From an archaeon (lineage in GTDB: Archaea; Hydrothermarchaeota; Hydrothermarchaeia; JALTZZ01; JALUTC01), in the NCBI GenBank assembly GCA_027051265.1, contig JALTZH010000014.1, positions 1 through 6,949 of the forward strand: 6,949 bases of DNA, written 5' to 3'. Below are positions 2,840 to 3,158 of the stretch, in pieces (position 1 is the stretch's first letter; each line of letters begins with the position of its first letter). The position numbers and the translations under genes were made by a program. The notes under the pieces are model-generated. The model was given only the letters and a program-made list of their open reading frames with translations. It was not told the origin of the DNA and made no database searches.

Positions 2840-2949
2840 CATCTTTTGTTGTTTATATAATTGTTTATATATTTTATGAGTACTCGATCTCATGAGTCGG
2901 GAGTGATACAAATCTCAGAAAGTTTAAGCTATAGTTGTAGTATTGAAAG

Positions 2950-3005
2950 TCAGCTAACCCCCTTATCATCATAAAATAAATCTCAGTTTGGAGGCTTTTC
3001 ATCAT
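2950..3005 (-). ncRNA. Archaeal C/D box guide sRNA
   Basis: On the minus strand all four boxes are perfect and correctly spaced. Box C atgatga (3005-2999) is followed by a 12-nt guide (aaagcctccaaa) and D' ctga (2986-2983). A 10-nt spacer, C' atgatga (2972-2966), a second 12-nt guide (taagggggttag) and D ctga (2953-2950) complete it. The 12-nt C-to-D' and C'-to-D distances and the 56-nt length are those expected of archaeal double-guide sRNAs. These assemble with L7Ae, Nop5 and fibrillarin to direct 2'-O-methylation. By the D+5 rule the targets would be the fifth base (C) of 5'-cuaacccccuua for the D guide and the fifth base (G) of 5'-uuuggaggcuuu for the D' guide. I cannot say which rRNA or tRNA carries them. 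Flanking bases give no strong terminal stem. The ends are set to the boxes; the transcript should extend a few nt on each side. Confidence 0.85.
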
Positions 3006-3053
3006 ATATAAACTTCTTACATAAGGCCTTGTATGGGTTTATTCTTTTTTAGG

Positions 3054-3120: not shown

Positions 3121-3158
3121 TAAGCTATTAAATTTATCAACGTTAACGTTAGCAAATA
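3121..3158 (+). repeat. 38-bp repeat, copy 2 (palindromic core)
   Basis: This copy has the same 12-base left part and 20-base right part as 2142-2179, with tttatc as the central 6 bases. It ends 31 bp from the stop codon of the DUF89 gene, on its downstream side. The palindrome here is limited to the 12-bp aacgttaacgtt. Confidence 0.75.

Follow-up and report, generated by a model that had tools for sequence, protein, structure and literature searches.

A probable double-guide C/D box sRNA gene aimed at 23S helix 69, abutting a solo CRISPR leader-repeat unit in an archaeal contig

The window, that is, the whole stretch of 6,949 nt analyzed here, contains a 56-nt element on the minus strand at 2950-3005, located in a spacer, and a CRISPR leader with a single repeat on the plus strand that touches it. 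The features of the locus and of its surroundings are as follows.

1313-1960, minus: Cas4-like ORF (PADLOC Cas4, E 9e-6)
2406-2774, plus: ORF of 122 aa, located upstream of the leader-repeat unit; its product has tandem repeats of 11 residues and a hydrophobic segment at the C-terminus
2828-2921, plus: CRISPR leader of the repeat at 2922-2949, with homology to the C128 array leader in the host genome (E 1.2e-22)
2922-2949, plus: solo CRISPR repeat GTTTAAGCTATAGTTGTAGTATTGAAAG, 28 nt, with 2 mismatches to the repeat of the C128 array
2950-2953, minus: D box CUGA (consensus), abutting the CRISPR repeat
2954-2965, minus: D guide TAAGGGGGTTAG (as RNA, UAAGGGGGUUAG), 12 nt, pairing with 23S helix 69, where C1920 (E. 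coli numbering) is the predicted methylation site
2966-2972, minus: C' box AUGAUGA (consensus)
2973-2982, minus: D'-C' loop GATTTATTTT (as RNA, GAUUUAUUUU), 10 nt
2983-2986, minus: D' box CUGA (consensus)
2987-2998, minus: D' guide AAAGCCTCCAAA (as RNA, AAAGCCUCCAAA), 12 nt, with no target assigned
2999-3005, minus: C box AUGAUGA, fitting the consensus RUGAUGA (PMC7994747)
3190-4047, minus: ARMT1-like damage-control phosphatase (DUF89), on the same strand as the sRNA and upstream of it

The minus strand reads tatAUGAUGA-AAAGCCUCCAAA-CUGA-GAUUUAUUUU-AUGAUGA-UAAGGGGGUUAG-CUGA-cuuucaau. The boxes are arranged in the order C-D'-C'-D, C and C' both fit RUGAUGA, D and D' are both CUGA, and each guide is 12 nt long, within the 10-12 nt of archaeal C/D box sRNAs. 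An earlier note, made from the sequence of the window, had described this layout (C, 12 nt, D', 10 nt, C', 12 nt, D), and every base of it is right; the exact coordinates bear out the four consensus boxes and the 12-nt guides. Its judgment that chance is very unlikely also stands, since base composition leads one to expect about 2e-8 such layouts per window and about 5e-6 per genome of the host's size, and the reversed pattern gives 0 matches.

The other sRNAs of the host genome (G000) and its relatives should be noted. The strict C-D'-C' pattern occurs 16 times in the host, 23 times in a congener (G001, 81% complete), and 7 times in an order-mate (G002), with 1 and 2 matches in two class-mates and none for the reversed control across the five genomes. 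In nearly all the matches read out, a D box is present about 12 nt further on. Orthologous sRNAs are found in the host and the congener (L095/L086 and L085/L096), and the two genomes have guides in common (ATATCTAATCAT with ACCACCTCTCG; ATGATCCAGTTT against ATAATCCAGTTT); another guide, ATTTGCCGAGTG, is common to the host and the order-mate. Fibrillarin, the methyltransferase of the RNP, is encoded on contig C209 of the host (E 3.3e-95). The number of strict patterns (at least 16 in the host), their completion by D boxes, and the guides common to species indicate that the C/D repertoire of the host is normal and that the sRNA at 2950-3005 belongs to it. The D'-C' loops in the sizeable C/D sRNA sets of these three genomes, which represent a little-studied archaeal phylum, are mostly 3 nt long. 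Most of the 16 strict sRNAs of the host have a 3-nt loop as well, and the 10-nt loop at 2950-3005 is the longest among them.

No Rfam family matches the sRNA at the gathering score. The covariance-model check proposed in the earlier note nevertheless points to the same kind of RNA, because the best relaxed matches on this strand and interval (2947-3008, minus) are the archaeal C/D families sR5, sR18, and snoPyro_CD, all below the gathering score. An ortholog of the sRNA was not found in the 81% complete congener. A synteny search with the DUF89 protein gave no copy in the congener and remote ones elsewhere, so that the sRNA locus is not comparable with that genome.

The host 16S and 23S rRNA genes were searched for in the assembly and not found; the pairing of the D guide was therefore deduced from class relatives. 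In their 23S rRNA, positions 2-12 of the guide pair with helix 69, AUAACCCUCUUAAGG (AUAACCCUCUUA), through 11 bp, 10 Watson-Crick and 1 G-U, while position 1 is mismatched. A search of 23 class genomes recovered the helix 69 motif in 7; six copies are identical, and that of G003 differs by a single A-to-G substitution. Guide position 5 faces the C of UAUAAC in all seven relatives that have the region, and this C is where the methylation predicted in the earlier note at C5 of the D-guide target falls. In the E. coli 23S sequence used (2906 nt), this C is at position 1922. The numbering is anchored on the 2904-nt length of the reference and on the A-loop landmark U2552; the copy used is 2 nt longer than the reference, and position 1922 thus corresponds to C1920.

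Shuffled guides equal the pairing score of the D guide in 2 of 400 cases. Furthermore, the order-mate has GATGATAAGAGGGTTATCTGA, whose guide, TAAGAGGGTTAT, is complementary to the same helix 69 stretch at all 12 positions, lies inside its own ATGATGA...CTGA boxes, and is aimed at the same 23S nucleotide. A lack of any complement in rRNA or tRNA, which the earlier note had named as part of the evidence against its reading, is not what is observed, given the 11 bp with helix 69 and the guide of the order-mate. Archaeal C/D methylation has a known hotspot in helices 68-71 (PMC4644070; PMC7994747).

The D' guide behaves differently from the D guide. The methylation at G5 of its target, also predicted in the earlier note, finds no confident rRNA or tRNA match. 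A search of the assembly with 11-mers of the guide, allowing up to one mismatch, gave 16 matches, no more than the control, and 0 of them lie inside a tRNA; at a level of at least 10 of 11, the tRNAs of the assembly offer no match. The best match of the guide in the rRNA of relatives does not rise above those of shuffled guides. Two candidate sites were rejected as weak: 23S helix 34/35 (GUGGAGGC), with a pairing of 7-8 bp, and a variable hairpin that lies 351 nt upstream of helix 71, with one of 8 bp. Shuffled guides do equally well in 76 of 400 cases. Archaeal guides with no detectable target are common (PMC7994747). Either the D' target lies in the missing host rRNA or the D' guide is an orphan. 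The 10-nt D'-C' loop, atypical for the host, could leave the RNP with a weaker D' half.

On the other side of the D box, the CRISPR repeat ends in the usual ATTGAAAG, and its final base, 2949, touches the first base of the box, 2950. The antisense of the sRNA thereby occupies the place of a first spacer on the plus strand. When the minus-strand spacer is used as a query, 48 places are matched in the host genome, and these are CRISPR repeats and leaders. A sequence model built from 11 leader-repeats (A1, R1) detects about 30 solo units in the host (E 1e-30 to 4e-4) besides the repeats inside arrays, such as C50:8529-8645, C48:19200-19312, C108:14096-14217, C60:666-788, C25:4218-4335, and C113:446-555. 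The model has no match in G002, G003, G006, G008, G010, or G012; in the congener, it matches the array of that genome and one degenerate unit. The solo units form a continuum of decay. By a rough count, ORF starts being called mechanically, a co-directional ORF starts within 100 nt downstream in 20 of 32 non-array units, and a divergent one within 100 nt upstream in 6 of 32. In C50:8529-8645, the repeat immediately adjoins an ATG.

The orthologous sites in the congener lack the unit in all three cases that are readable, C50:8529, C113:9008, and the array site, the first two being otherwise rearranged too. The array site is the clearest case. In the host, about 500 nt lie between two genes there, along with a leader and an array that has at least 29 repeats (C128:12332-14317 into C27:1-164). 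At the corresponding place in the congener (L176, around 560-660), the gene ending in EEILLRE is directly adjacent to the next gene, which we read as truA. From this arrangement, the array looks as if it had grown on a unit inserted between genes that are adjacent in the congener. Partial copies of the 3' end of the repeat (GTAGTATTGAAAG or ATTGAAAG) follow several solo units (L025 4336-4370, L150, L148, and L022 at about 915-930), and similar degenerate partial copies are found in the array trailers of C27 and C84. The repeat is not carried by the viral contigs searched. We think it unlikely that the solo units are real arrays collapsed by the assembler, since the leaders vary from unit to unit and many of the repeats are degenerate. 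In our interpretation, the solo units are CRISPR loci with zero spacers and represent either seeds or remnants. A further idea, which we regard as doubtful though worth stating, is that these roughly 30 loci spread through the genome, provide genes with portable promoters or 5' leaders, and can be seeds on which Cas1-Cas2 builds new arrays; the one in the window would in addition give rise to an antisense transcript of the sRNA.

Several other observations concern the surroundings. The 122-aa ORF resembles, by eye, an ORF of the congener (L069 763-1080, minus) that likewise lies next to a degenerate leader-like unit. Direct repeats of 38 nt with the palindrome TAACGTTAACGTTA (2142-2179 and 3121-3158, 979 nt apart) flank a segment with the small ORF, the sRNA, and the CRISPR unit; contig C11 (L133, minus) has one more copy, near another solo unit, and the congener contigs read have none. 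The Cas4-like ORF, which lies in the same window as the solo CRISPR unit, matches no Pfam family above the cut-off. The part of the window from 1 to about 1095 has a higher G+C content, encodes a truncated protein of the treble-clef type (zf_Tbcl-like), a kind known from Patescibacteria, and looks foreign to the archaeal remainder. The contig may be chimeric, joined near 1090.

These data allow the possible readings of the stretch at 2950-3005 to be compared. The double-guide archaeal C/D box sRNA proposed in the earlier note is supported by the boxes, by fibrillarin, and by the strict sRNAs of the host, several of them orthologous to those of the congener. Its helix 69 target could still be fortuitous, with a tRNA or an mRNA as the real one: the host rRNA is missing from the assembly, and the pairing with the sequence of relatives includes the mismatch at position 1 and the G-U pair. 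We consider this improbable, because so few shuffled guides pair equally well and the order-mate independently has a guide to the same nucleotide. The lowest probability of all is given to a one-spacer CRISPR locus whose spacer would contain C/D boxes on the opposite strand by chance. The stretch does lie directly 3' of a leader and a repeat on the plus strand, but the homology is limited to the leader and the single repeat at 2922-2949, whereas an array has two or more repeats separated by spacers; as a second repeat is absent, we rejected this locus type. Moreover, 56 nt exceeds the array spacers of about 38-40 nt (from a repeat spacing of about 67-68 nt), and four perfect boxes with perfect spacing, for which the reversed control gives 0, are unexpected in a spacer.

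Regulation of the sRNA by its CRISPR neighbor is the remaining reading, in which the leader would drive a plus-strand RNA and Cas6 would cut the repeat to give a crRNA-like antisense, AUUGAAAG-UCAGCUAACCCCC... The exact end of the repeat at the D box, the perfect antisense of the sRNA downstream of it, and the homology of the leader to that of a real array fit this scheme. However, the crRNA-like transcript is suggested by position, and the adjacency of repeat and sRNA is unique among the roughly 30 units, most of which precede ordinary genes, so that it can be a coincidence. We therefore give this regulation a very small chance, below that of another target, and regard the CRISPR unit at 2828-2949 as probably an independent neighbor of the sRNA.

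We conclude with high confidence, from sequence comparison, that the minus strand at 2950-3005 is a standard archaeal double-guide C/D sRNA gene, whose D guide would direct methylation of C1920 in 23S helix 69. By analogy with the known family, the gene would be transcribed into an RNA of about 60 nt that folds into a C/D k-turn and a C'/D' k-loop and assembles with L7Ae, Nop5, and fibrillarin. The D guide would then base-pair with helix 69, and C1920, which faces the fifth guide position counted from the D box, would become methylated on its ribose. The adjoining leader-repeat belongs to a separate dispersed family and is present there probably by insertion or by chance of position.

The sRNA shares with archaeal double-guide C/D sRNAs (Rfam sR5, sR18, and snoPyro_CD) the boxes and their order, the 12-nt guides, a length of about 56-60 nt, the location in a spacer, and a complementarity to rRNA that stops upstream of the D box. 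It differs from them in matching no family at the gathering score, in its 10-nt D'-C' loop, and in its 3' end abutting a CRISPR repeat. The order-mate sRNA (G002:C56:3416-3447) is aimed at the same 23S nucleotide with a nearly identical guide (TAAGAGGGTTAT vs TAAGGGGGTTAG), whereas its helix 69 guide is in the D' half, its interbox loop is 3 nt, and its second guide and gene neighborhood are different. Bacterial TlyA-type methyltransferases are reported to methylate the same nucleotide, C1920 of 23S (PMC5778110; PMC12805891); TlyA is a stand-alone protein enzyme, unlike the guide RNA with fibrillarin proposed here.

The sRNA is ordinary for its kind, one further guide at a known hotspot, and the dispersed leader-repeat family is the surprising part. 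A search of open-access titles and abstracts, which is weak evidence of novelty, showed nothing on dispersed solo leader-repeat units in an archaeon or on a C/D sRNA abutting a CRISPR leader-repeat. The dispersed units would bear on the origin of CRISPR arrays and on the reuse of leaders as promoters. For the sRNA, Cm1920 is a prediction that can be tested in a lineage of uncultured archaea. Within one order, two families would make this mark with the guide in the D half of the sRNA in one and in the D' half in the other, the pattern to be expected from a conserved target served by genes that turn over.
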